Assembly: GCA_025356475.1 (NCBI GenBank)
Contig: JANXSX010000092.1
Span: 1 to 47,093 of the forward strand
Origin: Isosphaeraceae bacterium
GTDB taxonomy: Bacteria; Planctomycetota; Planctomycetia; Isosphaerales; Isosphaeraceae
Length of the DNA stretch: 47,093 bases
Reading direction: 5' to 3'
In this document: positions 6,219-12,592 of the stretch, piece by piece
How positions within the stretch are numbered: the first letter of the stretch is position 1
Layout of the letters: every line of letters begins with the position of its first letter
Made by a program: the position numbers and the translations under genes
The notes under the pieces: model-generated
What the model saw: the letters and a program-made list of their open reading frames with translations, nothing else
Database searches by the model: none
Told to the model about the DNA's origin: nothing

Positions 6219-6881
6219 TCAGGTGCTGGCGTGAGCTTTCTTGCGGAGGCCGTAGCCAACCATGCCAACGATGCCTAGACCCATCAGGACGATACTACCC
6301 GGCTCAGGTACAAAGGCGAACGTGCCTGCGAGATACTTGTTTGGCGGGCCACTGTCAATGGCTGTCGGCAGTCCAACAATACCAGAGTTGTAACGGAGGC
6401 CCGTGGCAATGATCTGGGGTGCAATCGACGAAACGGCGGGATTGTAATTGCCGTTCTGGTCGGCGGGCGTAAAGCCATCCGCAACGATCGAATACGACTT
6501 GCCAACGGTCAAACCGAGCGAGGCAGCACCAATCAAGGTCGGAGCGAGGTAGCGGCTGGCACCTCCACCAATTAGGGTGTTCCCCTGGTTACTAGGACTA
6601 GGACCGAAGGCGGCCGTCATCAAGAGGATTGGGGTGTTGATGTTCGTGATGTCATAAAGGCGGACATTAAGGCGACCTACGAAACCATCTCCACCCGCGT
6701 CAAACAGGCCGAGTTGTGTGATGGTGATTGGGCTGGCGACCTGAAAGTCGAGGCCCAGCGTAAAACCGTCCTGATTGCCTGGCGTGCCGACCGGCACATT
6801 ATAGGCGATAAAATCAGCCTTAGCTGAGCTAGCGAAGCTGAGAAGTGTCAGTGCTAGGAAGAATCGGATTGATGACTTCAC
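6219..6881 (-). CDS. PEP-CTERM sorting domain protein
   Basis: The 220-aa exported protein has a signal peptide (residues 1-22, 'FFLALTLLSFASSAKA') and a C-terminal sorting tail: 'FVPEPGSIVLMG', a hydrophobic helix, then 'LRKK'. PEP-CTERM tails are processed by exosortase and place proteins at the cell surface. The middle is a beta-rich domain with 'ITQLGLFDAGGDGF', a pattern common in planctomycete PEP-CTERM proteins. The start is GTG at 6881, supported by AGGAG seven bases upstream. No exosortase gene is in the window. The substrate or binding role is unknown. Confidence 0.85.
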   Translation of the reverse strand: MKSSIRFFLALTLLSFASSAKADFIAYNVPVGTPGNQDGFTLGLDFQVASPITITQLGLFDAGGDGFVGRLNVRLYDITNINTPILLMTAAFGPSPSNQGNTLIGGGASRYLAPTLIGAASLGLTVGKSYSIVADGFTPADQNGNYNPAVSSIAPQIIATGLRYNSGIVGLPTAIDSGPPNKYLAGTFAFVPEPGSIVLMGLGIVGMVGYGLRKKAHAST

Positions 6882-7694: not shown

Positions 7695-8561
7695 TCACTT
7701 CGGCTCTTCGACCTTTGGCTTCTCTTCAGCCTTAGGAGCTTCGGCCTTGGGGGCTTCTTCGACCTTTGGCTTCTCTTCAGCCTTAGGGGCTTCGGCCTTC
7801 GGCTTGTCATCAGCCTTAGGAGCTTCGACCTTTGGCTTGTCTTCAGCCTTAGGAGCTTCGACCTTTGGCTTGTCTTCAGCCTTAGGAGCTTCGACCTTCG
7901 GCTTCTCTTCAGCCTTCGACTTCTCTTCGACCTTGGGCGGTTCAGGCTTCTTCTCTTCGACCTTGGGGGCGACGGTCGGTTCGGGGCCCTTGGCCTTGCG
8001 GACTTCGTCGATGTACTTGGTCAGCAGATTGGAGCGCTGATCGTAGTAATCCTTCAAACCTTTAGCGGGCTGAACGATCCGGACATCATTGATGGGGACG
8101 ATCCCATCCATCTTGCCATATCCGCTAAACCAGGCACCAAAGACCTCAGGGCTGACGCCTTTACGGGCCTTCAGGTCGCGGACATCGACAGCGCGTCCGG
8201 TCACGAGCAGGTCGAGAACGGGGGGAGGGTCGATCGAGGATTCGACGAGTTTCGCGTCCTGGGCAGCGACGATAAACTCGGCGATTGCCTTGAGCGCGGC
8301 TTCCCGCTTGTCCTGAACGTTCTGGGGGATCGGCAGCAGTGCGGCCTCGGTTGGGGCGGCAGGCTTGGTCTCGACGGGCGTGGCGGCAGCCTCGGCCTTC
8401 TTTTCCTCGGCCTTGGGGGCTTCAGCCTTCTTGTCTTCGGCCTTGGGGGCCTCGACCTTCTTTTCCTCGGCGGGCTTGGGGTCTTGGCCCATCAAGCGAC
8501 CGGCGGTTGAGAGGCCGATCAAAACCGACAGCGATAGAGCGATCGTCAGCAGGCGGCGCAC
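7695..8561 (-). CDS. Exported Lys/Glu/Pro-rich repeat protein
   Basis: The 288-aa protein has an N-terminal signal sequence ('LLTIALSLSVLIGLSTAG'). A first charged repeat block (about 28-60) comes next, then a folded central segment (about 70-190), then a long C-terminal tail of 11-residue repeats of the type KPKVEAPKAED. The GTG start at 8561 is chosen because AGGAG precedes it at good spacing and the signal peptide begins there. An ATG 74 codons upstream would bury the signal. The tail resembles periplasm-spanning or polymer-binding linkers. I recognise no family for the central part, so function is unknown. Confidence 0.75.
   Translation of the reverse strand: MRRLLTIALSLSVLIGLSTAGRLMGQDPKPAEEKKVEAPKAEDKKAEAPKAEEKKAEAAATPVETKPAAPTEAALLPIPQNVQDKREAALKAIAEFIVAAQDAKLVESSIDPPPVLDLLVTGRAVDVRDLKARKGVSPEVFGAWFSGYGKMDGIVPINDVRIVQPAKGLKDYYDQRSNLLTKYIDEVRKAKGPEPTVAPKVEEKKPEPPKVEEKSKAEEKPKVEAPKAEDKPKVEAPKAEDKPKVEAPKADDKPKAEAPKAEEKPKVEEAPKAEAPKAEEKPKVEEPK
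7703..7930 (-). repeat. 33-bp tandem repeats encoding KPKVEAPKAED units
   Basis: About six imperfect copies of a 33-base unit lie in frame within the 3' half of the repeat-protein gene. Adjacent copies are nearly identical at DNA level, so copy number may vary between strains by slippage or recombination. Confidence 0.8.
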
Positions 8562-8701
8562 CGTGGGATCTCCTCTCTTCTCTTCGTCGAATTCAGTCCA
8601 TGACAATTTCAGGCGGTGCGACCCATGGGCCTCGCGTTTTGCACACAAGGTCACACCGATTGAGCCGAGTGTAGCGGTCTTGCCGAAGGTCTGCCAGGCC
8701 A

Positions 8702-9100
8702 CTACGCCGATAGATCCGATTCGAGCGACTCTGGCTGGTAAAGGGCACCGACCGCCCCCGCTGGGTCCTCGATCACGGCGCACCGGGCATTACCCCCCAT
8801 GCTGCAAGGTTCGGCCACGATCTTTCCCCCTTGTAGGAGGCAGCTCGCAAGGCTCGCGTCAGGGTTTGGCACCGTGATGTAAATCAACCACTGTGGGGGC
8901 AAAGTCGCATTCATCTCCCGCGCGTGGCAGACATCTGCTATAGGGGTTGCCGCCCCCGAAGGATGGAGGCAAAAGTTGCTGTACCCACCCATCTCGACTT
9001 CAGTCGCAGTCCAACCGACCACGGCTTGATAGAACTCTCGTACACGCTCGGCATTAGGCACAGTCAAATCTACCTAGCCGATTTGACCGTGTCCTGCCAT
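8702..9100 (-). pseudogene. VOC (glyoxalase/bleomycin resistance) family gene with in-frame amber codon
   Basis: From ATG 9100, with GGTGGGG upstream, the frame reads MAGHGQIG-stop-VDLTVPNAERVREFY. The TAG at 9074-9076 stands where many members of this VOC family have Trp (G-W-x-DLTVxDA), a one-base TGG to TAG change. After it the domain is intact to 8702: 'QAVVGW', 'MGGYSNF', and the second-half 'VAEPCSMGGNARCAVIEDP'. A TTG restart at 9067 could still make a 121-aa protein lacking the first strand. VOC enzymes bind metal and act on small substrates; the substrate here is unknown. It is either a new pseudogene, a read-through case, or a restart. Confidence 0.65.
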
Positions 9101-9135: not shown

Positions 9136-9969
9136 TTACAGAGGGTCGAATCGCTTGATCAGAGTGACCTCGTTTCCAGCCAGATTGTATCTGTGCTCGT
9201 CGACGAGTCCCTTGGCGAGCATGATCCCGAAGCCCCCCTCACGGATACCTTGTTCGTTACGCACATCAAGGTGGCCGATTGGATCTTCTTCGCTGGCAGC
9301 GTGGGGGATATTCCTGGGGTTGAAGCCGGGTCCCTGGTCGCGAATGATCAAGGTGACCGAAGTCGGATCGATGCGATAGGTGATCCGTACGGGTTTTTCG
9401 GGATCCTTACGGTGCCCCCACTCGATTGCGTTGCCCCCCATTTCCAGAACCGCTTGCTTCAGATCTTTGACCTGGCGTTCCGTAAGTGGTGTGTGGGCAT
9501 AGAGATCGGCAAGAAGGTCATTCGTTTGCTGAAGGAATGCGACCTCACCGCGAATATCGAAGGTGATTTCGCCCTTTGTTCCCTTGTTGGAATGCTCATC
9601 GCGCCAGGCGATTGCTTGGTCGATCACGGTGAAAAGCTGGTCGAAAGTGAACGGCTTGGCGAGATATCCATTGGCACCGACGCGAACCCCATTGAGGCGA
9701 TGAGCCTGATCGTTCAGCGCTGTGACCATGATGACCGGAATGAGATTGGTTTCTCGGTCGCGTTTGAGTTGTTCGCAGACGGAAAAACCATCGATATCTG
9801 GGAGCATCAGGTCAAGGAGAACGACGTCCGGAGTCTGGGCGCGTACGGAAGCGGCGACCTCGGAGCCGGAAAAAAGTTGGACCGGCTCGAAACCGCGAGC
9901 CTGGACGAGGCTCGCCAGGATATCGTTACTGTCGCGCTCGTCGTCTACGATTAGCACGGTGCGCGGCAT
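9136..9969 (-). CDS. Response regulator fused to anti-sigma-type HATPase domain
   Basis: The 277-aa protein has two parts. Residues 1-120 are a receiver domain with acidic pair D9/D10, phospho-acceptor D53 ('VVLLDLMLPD') and Lys near 104 ('YLAKPF'). Residues 145-277 are a GHKL ATPase domain with N-box 'EMGGNAIEWG', G1 'DQGPGFNP' and G2 'GGFGIMLAKG', closest to RsbW/SpoIIAB-type HATPase_c_2. There is no DHp dimerisation domain, so it is not a normal histidine kinase. It probably senses phosphorylation and controls a partner-switching anti-sigma activity. The start at 9969 puts the receiver fold at residue 1; an ATG at 10038 is less likely. Confidence 0.85.
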   Translation of the reverse strand: MPRTVLIVDDERDSNDILASLVQARGFEPVQLFSGSEVAASVRAQTPDVVLLDLMLPDIDGFSVCEQLKRDRETNLIPVIMVTALNDQAHRLNGVRVGANGYLAKPFTFDQLFTVIDQAIAWRDEHSNKGTKGEITFDIRGEVAFLQQTNDLLADLYAHTPLTERQVKDLKQAVLEMGGNAIEWGHRKDPEKPVRITYRIDPTSVTLIIRDQGPGFNPRNIPHAASEEDPIGHLDVRNEQGIREGGFGIMLAKGLVDEHRYNLAGNEVTLIKRFDPL

Positions 9970-10229
9970 GGGCGAGGACCCTGGTAGAACGCGAATAGTC
10001 GTTGGCGGCATTGTCGCGCGCCGGAAGTCAACTGGCAAGACGCCCGATCACCGGCCAAGCCTCACGGGGAGTTGCATGCCCCCTTGCGAACGCAGTGGAG
10101 GCACCCCACAATAGGCTCTACGCTAGGCTTTGTTGGTTTGGGACGCACTCGACCCATTCCAGTTCCGGCCGGCTTCCACGTCGAGACACTACTAGTTATA
10201 TCACGCACGCCCGAGCGAGGTAGCCCACC

Positions 10230-10928
10230 ATGGACGTTACTCGGATCATCGACGCCTTTGGCTACGTGATCTACGCCGCTTTGGCTTTACTCGCGGTCTG
10301 GGGAGTCTACAACGCGATTCTCCTTTATCGGAGTCTCGCTAAGAAGAGTCTACCATCCGGCACGGAACAAGCGCTCATTCTGCAGGTCCGGGACCTCGGA
10401 AAGGCCGGGAAGTTTGATGCCGCGATTGCGGCCTGTGCCAATCCTCCTTACTGGCACGCGGCTCTCGCCCAGTTGATTGCCGTGGCGCTAAAGAATCGCG
10501 AGAAGGGGCTCGCTAAGGTCAAGGGACTCTTGGTGTTAGAGTTCCATACTGAGGTGATCGCAGGTATGGAAAACCGCCTGGCCTCGATTGCCACCATTGT
10601 CCGGATGGGCCCACTGCTTGGTCTGCTTGGTACGGTCGCCAGCATGATCGGTGCGTTCGGTCGAATCGGCGGATCTGATAAAGTCAACGCTCAGGCGCTC
10701 GCAACTGACATCAGCTTGGCGCTCTGGGCCACGGGGGGCGGTCTCCTGATCGCCACACCGATGATGCTTCTCGGCAACGACATTCATGCCAAGCTGAGGC
10801 GACTTCGCGACGTCACCGAGAAGCAACTTCAGGAATTCCTTGATGTTTTCGAGACACTTGAGACTCCCAGTAGCCGGGCGACGACGGGTCGATCTTCAGG
10901 CTCCGTGCGAGCCGTCTTGCCCCGCTAA
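10230..10928 (+). CDS. MotA/TolQ/ExbB proton channel family protein
   Basis: The 232-aa inner-membrane protein has the ExbB/TolQ layout. TM1 is at about 8-30; a cytoplasmic segment follows; TM2 ('MGPLLGLLGTVASMIGAF') is at about 127-147; TM3 ('ISLALWATGGGLLIATPMML') is at about 166-186. GAGG precedes the ATG by nine bases. ExbB pentamers and ExbD dimers use the proton gradient to drive envelope machines. The gene is followed at once by two ExbD-like genes on the same strand, so this is a motor operon. No TonB or TolA-like gene is nearby. Confidence 0.9.
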   Translation: MDVTRIIDAFGYVIYAALALLAVWGVYNAILLYRSLAKKSLPSGTEQALILQVRDLGKAGKFDAAIAACANPPYWHAALAQLIAVALKNREKGLAKVKGLLVLEFHTEVIAGMENRLASIATIVRMGPLLGLLGTVASMIGAFGRIGGSDKVNAQALATDISLALWATGGGLLIATPMMLLGNDIHAKLRRLRDVTEKQLQEFLDVFETLETPSSRATTGRSSGSVRAVLPR

Positions 10929-10997
10929 CTTGGAACCTGAATGTCGGGTGGGGATATCCCACCCTCCCTGCCAAACCGATCGATCGAGGCCAAAGCG

Positions 10998-11429
10998 ATG
11001 CTTCTCCGCCGCCAGGTCAGCGCTGAGCGTGACGAGCACATTGACATGACTCCGATGGTCGACGTCGTGTTTCAGCTCATGACATTCATGCTCTTCTCCG
11101 TCCAGATGAGCGGAGGCGAGAAGGTCGAAGTCCCGCACGCCCGTCACGGTGTTGGTGTCGAAGAGGATGGCGCGACGTTCTTGACCCTCCTCAAGGCGGA
11201 CGCTCCGGGTGCCGAGCCAAGACTCGTTTTGGGCAATGGCGGTGGGGCTCCCGTGGGACTCGACGAGGCCAAGAAGTCGGTGGCTGCGGGGGTCGCTGCG
11301 GGCAAGCGTAAGGTCGTTCTTCAGGCGGATGGGGCTGTCCCGCACGGCGAGGTCTTGAAATTGGCCGCCGCTGTCGCCGAGATCGAGGGGATCACGCTTC
11401 ACATCGGTGTTCAGGAACCTGAACGATAA
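10998..11429 (+). CDS. ExbD/TolR-type biopolymer transport protein
   Basis: The product is 143 aa from ATG 10998, which has GAGG at good spacing; an ATG at 10941 lacks a ribosome binding site. The N-terminal TM carries the conserved proton-path aspartate in 'MTPMVDVVFQLMTFMLF', followed by a periplasmic ExbD domain that ends at 'ITLHIGVQEPER'. It pairs with the ExbB protein encoded 69 bases upstream. It is a standard motor partner, in contrast to the unusual second ExbD downstream. Confidence 0.9.
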   Translation: MLLRRQVSAERDEHIDMTPMVDVVFQLMTFMLFSVQMSGGEKVEVPHARHGVGVEEDGATFLTLLKADAPGAEPRLVLGNGGGAPVGLDEAKKSVAAGVAAGKRKVVLQADGAVPHGEVLKLAAAVAEIEGITLHIGVQEPER

Positions 11430-11542
11430 CGACGATTCGGTTTTCTATTCTAGCCCTGTCACTCACGCCGGCGCTCAAAAACGCGTGAATTGGCCACGTC
11501 GAAGCTCAATGGACATTCAATCAGCAGGGTAATTTCGCAATT

Positions 11543-12592
11543 ATGAGCAATCTGTGGGATGTGTTTATCAGCGATCGACTGGAAGTCTCGCGTAGCCTGA
11601 CTCTGGCGGATGTCCGAAAGGGGATCGACCAGGGCGAGTTCCGCGATGATGACCTGATTCGACCTGCGGGAACCACGACCCCATGGATTCGGCTCAATGA
11701 GCTTGGCGAACTTGCCGACGTTCAGGTGCCGACGCCTCTCGTGGTCGCACCGCCAGAGATGCCCGTGATAGTCCTTCAGGACGATAACGCCGAACAAGAC
11801 AGTTTTGCTCTGACCAATGATGATGATGATGATGATGACGATGACGCGGACATCACTCACTTCGCCCCCGATGACGAGGAGGATGACGACGCCGACATCA
11901 CCGGCTTCGCTCTGGATAAGGAGGATGACGAGGAAGGGGAGGCGGACAGCGCAGAGGCTCTCGTCATTGATTCGTTGCCTGCGGTGCCGAGTTCTCAGGG
12001 GGCGGTTTCCGCGTTCGCAATCCCGACTGCTCCTTGGGGCGGCGAGGAGATGGACCTCGAAAATGAGGCTGACGACCTCGATTTCGATGAGGACGACGAG
12101 GAATTCGACGATGAGGACGAAGCCGTCGCCGCGTTCACTCTGAGTCGGAATGGTCCTGATCAAGTTGAAGAACTCGACCTAGCGGCGATGGTCGACGTCG
12201 CGTTCCAACTTGTTCTTTTCTTCCTTGTGACCGCCCAAACGATCATGTACAAGACCTTGGAAGTTCCCAAACCCAACCCCGAATCGCCTCCAGCCGCAGT
12301 GGCTCAAGGGCGGGGTCGCACCTTGGACGACCTCCAGCGCGACTTTATCGTGGTCGAGATCGATGCGTCTGGCGGTGTCATGATTGATCACGAACCAGCG
12401 ACTGCCGATCCCGCCGCCTTGGTCGAGCGCCTCCGTGCCGCCCGCCTTGCCACGGGTCGCAAGACGATGCTCCTCTCCGCCGATTTCTCGACGCCACATA
12501 AGAACGCCGTCATGGCCTATGATGCTGCCAATGAGGTGGGGCTGGGTATCGCGATTGCGAAGCCACCGGCACCTGGGGCCGGAAAGTCATAG
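11543..12592 (+). CDS. GYF-like domain / acidic linker / ExbD fusion protein
   Basis: The product is 349 aa. Residues 1-62 resemble a GYF_2-type domain ('LTLADVRKGIDQGEFRDDDLI', then 'TPWIRLNELGEL'). Residues about 88-200 are extremely Asp/Glu-rich, including a long run of Asp. Residues about 212-349 are an ExbD/TolR module with 'LDLAAMVDVAFQLVLFFLV' and a periplasmic domain ending in 'EVGLGIAIAKPP'. The N-terminal 210 residues would be cytoplasmic, where ordinary ExbD has only a short tail. They may bind a cytosolic partner or sense ions. It is co-directional with ExbB and ExbD. The GYF call is by pattern and less certain than the ExbD call. Confidence 0.8.
   Translation: MSNLWDVFISDRLEVSRSLTLADVRKGIDQGEFRDDDLIRPAGTTTPWIRLNELGELADVQVPTPLVVAPPEMPVIVLQDDNAEQDSFALTNDDDDDDDDDADITHFAPDDEEDDDADITGFALDKEDDEEGEADSAEALVIDSLPAVPSSQGAVSAFAIPTAPWGGEEMDLENEADDLDFDEDDEEFDDEDEAVAAFTLSRNGPDQVEELDLAAMVDVAFQLVLFFLVTAQTIMYKTLEVPKPNPESPPAAVAQGRGRTLDDLQRDFIVVEIDASGGVMIDHEPATADPAALVERLRAARLATGRKTMLLSADFSTPHKNAVMAYDAANEVGLGIAIAKPPAPGAGKS

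Follow-up and report, generated by a model that had tools for sequence, protein, structure and literature searches.

Positions 10230-12592 of the window, by which we mean the whole 47,093-nucleotide stretch of Isosphaeraceae bacterium contig JANXSX010000092.1, encode an ExbB protein and two ExbD proteins, ExbD1 and ExbD2. The second ExbD carries a domain with a modeled GYF fold and a long acidic linker on its cytoplasmic side. We propose that the three proteins probably belong to a proton-driven trans-envelope machine of this planctomycete class. Its load would be a set of proteins whose genes lie on another contig of this genome, C163, and the GYF domain would act as its cytosolic input module. 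The motor genes and the parts of ExbD2 are as follows.

10230-10928, + strand: ExbB/TolQ-like ring subunit, 232 residues (Pfam MotA_ExbB, 2.6e-18)
10941-11429, + strand: ExbD1, 162 residues, with a short cytoplasmic tail and transmembrane Asp41 (Pfam ExbD, 4.2e-12)
11543-12592, + strand: ExbD2, 349 residues, with a GYF domain and an acidic linker (Pfam ExbD, 1.7e-16, residues 207-335)
11543-11728, + strand: GYF-fold domain of ExbD2, residues 1-62, predicted to be cytoplasmic by topology (AlphaFold, Foldseek, VIA)
11729-12166, + strand: linker of ExbD2, acidic and poorly conserved, spanning about residues 63-208 (composition, identity to relatives)
12179-12235, + strand: membrane-spanning helix of ExbD2, in which Asp218 (codon 12194-12196) is the expected proton-binding residue (hydrophobicity, invariant Asp)

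An earlier note on this DNA, made from the letters alone, had read an ExbB with two ExbD proteins here and had given the second ExbD about 210 cytoplasmic residues, made up of a GYF-like domain and a linker dominated by Asp and Glu. The three genes were found as intact, Pfam-supported open reading frames, and the remaining elements of this description also held, as detailed below. The MotA_ExbB match scores 66.4 bits against a cut-off of 22.9, and the two ExbD matches score 46.7 and 60.9 bits against 25.4, which gives the trio the domain composition of a TolQR/ExbBD-type motor. The best NCBIfam matches are tolQ (53.2 bits, cut-off 221) and tolR (19.8 and 28.8 bits, cut-off 127.3), all far under the equivalog cut-offs, so that none of the genes is tolQ or tolR at equivalog level. 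The order ExbB-ExbD1-ExbD2 is kept in 37 of 37 loci, and the gap between ExbD1 and ExbD2 is 113 bp. Asp218 in the transmembrane helix of ExbD2 (D217 in alignment numbering) is invariant in 37 of 37 sequences, as is the transmembrane Asp of ExbD1 in 40 of 40 aligned (40 sampled from 97). In ExbB, the Thr of the GTV motif and a Thr in the last transmembrane helix are invariant in 40 of 40 aligned sequences (40 sampled from 104). Thus, both the ExbD transmembrane Asp and the ExbB channel-helix Thr of TolQR/ExbBD-type motors are in place, and because these residues are invariant, proton-driven motion is likely. The trio shares its subunit families, proton-binding Asp and channel Thr with the 5:2 motors of the TolQR/ExbBD type (PF01618, PF02472), but it has two different ExbD genes, carries a GYF domain or a zinc ribbon on one ExbD, falls below the equivalog cut-offs and, in the present case, resides in a genome with no TonB_C match.

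ExbD2 has a single transmembrane helix, with its hydrophobicity maximum at residue 213. Since this helix starts at about residue 213, ordinary ExbD topology leaves about 209 residues in the cytoplasm. Pfam finds no GYF_2 match in the window's ExbD2 at E ≤ 1, and we therefore turned to its relatives, a profile and a structure model. GYF_2 matches 24 of 31 aligned N-termini at E ≤ 1 (best 9.6e-5), the window's own not being among these. Modeled by AlphaFold from 17 sequences, the domain has a beta-beta-alpha-beta arrangement, with a predicted local distance difference score (pLDDT) of 89.6 and a predicted template modeling score (pTM) of 0.74. When this model was compared with the PDB by Foldseek, ranks 1-16 were filled by GYF domains, TIC subunits and a U5 spliceosomal complex; rank 1 was Smy2 (E 5.3e-3, with no match below 0.001), and rank 2 was the GYF domain of Myxococcus GltJ (7z3c, E 0.01), which at 31% had the highest identity of the sixteen. 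The same structures occupy ranks 1-11 in VIA (Z 5.2-7.1). Because GYF structures are the top matches in both searches, the fold of the N-terminal domain, as modeled, is GYF. Sequence comparison with the PDB was less productive: by phmmer, 7z3c was the sole match at E ≤ 1 (E 0.17), and a profile of the 31 N-termini retrieved no GYF entry, including 7z3c, returning weak unrelated matches (best E 0.031). Seven residues of the domain (W5, D6, D37, L38, R40, P41 and W48) are invariant in the 17 sequences. GYF_2 matches just one other locus in this genome, although copies as diverged as that of ExbD2 would escape such a search; the domain therefore appears to be no common decoration there.

The linker comprises 146 residues by the cut used, of which 36% are Asp or Glu, and has a net charge of -51. 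Across the 17 sequences it ranges from 129 to 254 residues and from 19 to 36% Asp plus Glu. It is the least conserved part of ExbD2, with a median identity to the window of 30%, compared with 50% for the GYF domain and 64% for the transmembrane and periplasmic part. A two-copy repeat of 45-bp period lies within the linker at 11843-11931. We also noted a motif, [VILF][ATS][LFI]P[VTIAL], that occurs above shuffles in 14 of 32 Isosphaeraceae linkers, including that of the window (11729-12142); it was picked post hoc from related sequences, and 4 of the 32 linkers come from genomes counted twice.

The arrangement of ExbD2 is conserved among relatives. Of 59 searched, 47 match at least the ExbD part; within the Isosphaeraceae, 30 of 36 match, and the six that do not are all 74-85% complete. 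Loci were fetched at length for 27 of these 30 genomes (all except G005, G021 and G030), and the GYF domain is present by motif in 27 of 27, with one aberrant case (L064). Some reading-frame starts extend too far upstream in the locus annotation (L048, L050, L064 and others). Outside the Isosphaeraceae, the usual state is a zinc ribbon at the ExbD2 N-terminus, seen in 56 of 90 tree rows; four rows are cut by contig ends. In one locus (L123:4048-5643) a Ser/Thr kinase is fused to ExbD2 (Pkinase, 3e-46), as seen in a single metagenome-assembled genome in which the kinase start is unclear. GYF-like ExbD2 domains also occur in two genomes of family f4 and one of family f6 (GYF_2 E 0.004-0.03). In a quick ExbD2 tree built on few columns, the Isosphaeraceae form one group (Shimodaira-Hasegawa-like approximate likelihood ratio test, SH-aLRT, 99) separate from the f4 pair. 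The regular expression used to sort the tree rows placed four GYF-like tails (L094, L067, L069 and L076) under "other" and dropped L140, in which a zinc ribbon is visible. The named-record loci are the best 80 of at least 249 relatives, and they overlap the loci from the genome search on the same contigs, so that the counts are not additive. Two record names do not fit their surroundings: the contig L149, labeled "Candidatus Nealsonbacteria", sits with planctomycete rows of the ExbD2 tree, and the contig L092, labeled "Candidatus Kuenenia", falls inside the Isosphaeraceae ExbD2 group.

The earlier note had predicted either a cytosolic partner for the motor or ion sensing, and had held that the idea would fail if the GYF similarity vanished in profile searches and the architecture was absent in relatives. 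Neither was seen, as 24 of the 31 aligned N-termini match GYF_2, though that of the window does not, and the GYF-acidic linker-ExbD architecture, for which the note had suggested a survey, is kept in all 27 long Isosphaeraceae loci. Because the N-terminal domain changes type yet keeps its place on ExbD2, we interpret it as a module for docking or input. Of the two readings, that of a cytosolic partner has the better support, in view of the GYF fold, its conservation and the zinc-ribbon and kinase swaps, although no partner was identified. Ion sensing by the acidic linker found no support and was dropped because the acidity varies over the range given above, in the least conserved part of the protein.

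The note had also left open which load the motor drives, given that no TonB is encoded nearby. That observation stands, but the load can be narrowed to a few proteins, and candidates could be named because relatives keep motor and partners in one operon. Neighbor clustering in 72 non-Isosphaeraceae loci revealed a conserved eight-gene operon that encodes a squalene-cyclase-like/HEAT protein, TA303, ExbB, ExbD1, ExbD2, a transmembrane protein with TPR and PQQ-propeller domains, an SBP_bac_5 protein and C532. In seed BLAST searches of the 72 loci, TA303 was found in 52, the propeller protein in 65, the SBP protein in 50, C532 in 45 and the cyclase-like protein in 29, counts that are limited by contig ends. 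Near the Isosphaeraceae motor, the first four were found in 0 of 46 loci and the cyclase-like protein gave one weak match (L046); the 46 and 72 are loci, not species. When whole genomes were searched, all 19 (13 of them from Isosphaeraceae) contained TA303, SBP and C532. In the window's own genome, contig C163 carries cyclase-TA303-propeller-SBP-C532 in this order at about 257.8-267.9 kb, without the motor trio. All 7 Isosphaeraceae partner loci that were fetched, out of 13 found, contain the same set in this order, and the spacing of TA303 and SBP is the same in five of the six that were not fetched. The f4 genome G044 is split otherwise, with TA303 beside the trio and propeller-SBP-C532 on another contig. 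Apart from the propeller (PQQ_2 type in the window genome's copy), Pfam places none of the conserved partners in a TonB or Tol-Pal family.

Many of the propeller proteins are tipped by an FHA domain; Pfam detects it at the N-terminus of the L065 protein and of the window genome's copy. FHA domains read phosphothreonine. Such reading would fit a signaling role, though the domain is not universal and the kinase locus seems to be without it. We considered connecting the kinase fusion with FHA but dropped the idea, as the propeller protein of L123 has no FHA-like start in its first 190 residues.

TA303 is our proposed force transducer, by position and topology. Its structure model resembles TonB and TolA in layout: a single transmembrane helix is followed by a linker of low confidence, another helix and a C-terminal domain modeled with confidence. 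Pfam assigns no family to TA303 from L065 or L132 (E ≤ 0.1) or to the copy in this genome (E ≤ 0.01). Of 12 further genomes from the class, 11 have it. Within a 148-genome sample of the phylum, whose number of class members is not given, it was found in the window's own genome, in 15 others of the class and, marginally (E 1.5e-4), in one elsewhere. A related kind of transducer is known from the Planctomycetes-Verrucomicrobia-Chlamydiae (PVC) group, where vWA force transducers are encoded with tolQ and paired tolR genes, according to PMC12204202. These proteins and TA303 share a single transmembrane helix, a disordered linker, a non-TonB periplasmic domain and an association with one tolQ and two tolR genes, but TA303 lacks the vWA domain and the SHLS motif and is partnered by the propeller, SBP and C532 proteins. 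Pfam finds no vWA match in TA303 (L065, L132 and the present copy), which therefore has no vWA domain, nor in the other partners. The vWA kind is also present in this genome, on contig C187.

The same genome, which is 99.98% complete, has no match at E ≤ 0.1 to TonB_C (PF03544), the one TonB family searched, or to the TonB-receptor Plug domain (PF07715), and a Ton role is therefore disfavored. The ExbD reading frames of its other motors are 141-169 residues long, and so none has a long tail. The vWA cluster on C187 has the order ExbB-ExbD-ExbD (L073, 9477-12921) with a vWA protein (VWA_3, 4.2e-7), and contigs C189 and C23 carry further ExbB/ExbD pairs. In Rhodopirellula baltica, exbB (RB12053) and exbD (RB12055) are induced at high salinity, as reported in PMC2754498. 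A literature search, in which most papers were judged by their listing and subscription papers (e.g. those on the GltJ structures) were not covered, found none that links ExbD with GYF domains or zinc ribbons or that describes the operon.

In the machine that we propose, ExbB, ExbD1 and ExbD2 would form a proton-driven motor of the TolQ/TolR type (5:2). Because two different ExbD genes are paired in every one of the 37 loci, an ExbD1-ExbD2 heterodimer is suggested and would probably serve as the axle, which would give each motor one cytosolic domain. The load would be the proteins encoded with the motor in most families and separately, on C163, here. TA303, with its one transmembrane helix, flexible linker and periplasmic domain without known relative, may transfer the force. 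The propeller protein, with its predicted cytosolic FHA domain in this genome, and the secreted SBP_bac_5-type, C532 and cyclase-like proteins may be further parts of the load. The GYF domain would hang into the cytosol on its long acidic tether and dock a cytosolic partner, which could position, switch or anchor the motor; the zinc ribbon would do the same job in other families.

Several observations weigh against this model. No phenotype was found. The GYF signature is absent from the ExbD2 domain: at what we take to be the canonical pocket and signature positions, aligned by eye, all 17 sequences have R or K in place of the F of GPF, and E, S, A, D, K or R in place of the Y of GYF. The fold is that of the GYF domains of Smy2, GIGYF and CD2BP2 (Pfam GYF_2), but since the aligned pocket positions are unconserved, ordinary binding of proline-rich peptides is doubtful and the type of ligand cannot be transferred. 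Seven of the 90 tree rows have a short ExbD2 tail only, and the cytosolic domain is therefore not strictly required. In the Isosphaeraceae the motor genes are not linked to the partner genes, which leaves their co-occurrence and the linkage seen in other families as the grounds for pairing them. One of the 13 Isosphaeraceae genomes (G007) has about 24 kb between TA303 and SBP. Three other loci of this genome encode both ExbB and ExbD. Fold searches with TA303 were negative (Foldseek best E 0.12, VIA best Z 3.4), and we therefore claim no fold for it; the SHLS motif is found in 0 of 20 TA303 sequences. Six of the further genomes with TA303, all of family f3, match over its C-terminal half only, and five of these six have no ExbD2 match at 1e-5. 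Finally, FHA is not universal, as Pfam finds none in the L132 propeller protein.

Other explanations deserve consideration. The cytoplasmic tail could be a mere spacer, a folding plug or an auto-inhibitory segment that has no cytosolic partner, with GYF and zinc ribbon as inert caps. The variable length and sequence of the linker would agree with this, as would the tolerance of zinc ribbon, GYF, kinase and short tail alike. We nevertheless consider it unlikely, because the GYF domain is more conserved than the linker (50% versus 30%) and has seven invariant residues. An ordinary TonB- or Tol-type energizer with an incidental long tail is less plausible still, and we regard it as very improbable: the Pfam ExbB and ExbD matches and the tolQ and tolR best matches are what it predicts, but every NCBIfam score lies far under its equivalog cut-off, the genome has neither TonB_C nor Plug, and the partners other than the propeller belong to no TonB or Tol-Pal family.

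The genes could instead encode a gliding or adhesion machine homologous to Agl-Glt of Myxococcus xanthus, in which the GYF domain would recruit a GTPase of the MglA type. GltJ recruits MglA. GltJ/AgmX has both a zinc ribbon (7zok) and a GYF domain (7z3c), which are alternatives on ExbD2 here; 7z3c is the second Foldseek match of our model and the sole phmmer match at E ≤ 1, and 7zok is the second PDB match of the zinc-ribbon profile (E 1.8e-4). In addition, AglR/AglQ/AglS comprise one TolQ and two TolR, as here, and GltG, like the propeller protein of this genome, is a membrane partner with an FHA domain (Table 1 of PMC3169522). Against this, zinc ribbons match each other too easily for the 7zok match to be specific, and the profile of the 31 N-termini failed to recover 7z3c. 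GltG carries TonB_C, to which this genome has no match. The two systems differ in build: GYF and zinc ribbon lie on GltJ/AgmX in Myxococcus and are fused to ExbD itself here, and the FHA protein here has a TPR-propeller part. The three Arf-family matches in this genome read by eye, with no MglA profile used, as IF-2-like, Obg-like and a large Era-like membrane protein, none of them MglA-like. We therefore find homology to Agl-Glt improbable and favor the proton-driven planctomycete machine.

One neighbor of the motor genes recurs in relatives.

9136-10038, - strand: protein with a response regulator receiver and a HATPase_c_2 domain (Pfam, 4e-25 and 1.8e-24)

Of 27 Isosphaeraceae loci, 22 have this gene in divergent orientation beside the motor, with 52-77% identity, and it may regulate the motor. 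A promoter scan of the window was uninformative, as both promoter-like sites are on the - strand, and a terminator scan gave matches at chance level. Elsewhere in the window, on the - strand, are a Lys/Glu/Ala/Pro-rich open reading frame with a tandem repeat of 33-bp period (7695-8783) and a protein with a PEP-CTERM motif (6219-6881).

The envelopes of planctomycetes are unusual, and these bacteria take up molecules of large size. More tentatively than the machine itself, we suggest that it might be a separate kind of trans-envelope machine, nearly universal in the class, in which an ExbD2 rotor with a swappable zinc ribbon, GYF domain or, once, kinase would be gated or placed from the cytosol and would act through a new, non-TonB transducer, TA303. 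In a genome without TonB_C and Plug, the conserved and mostly single-copy partners offer a genetic handle on how envelope processes are powered. Moreover, a motor subunit whose cytosolic domain differs from family to family would make a test case for the switching or placement of 5:2 motors by the cytosolic side.

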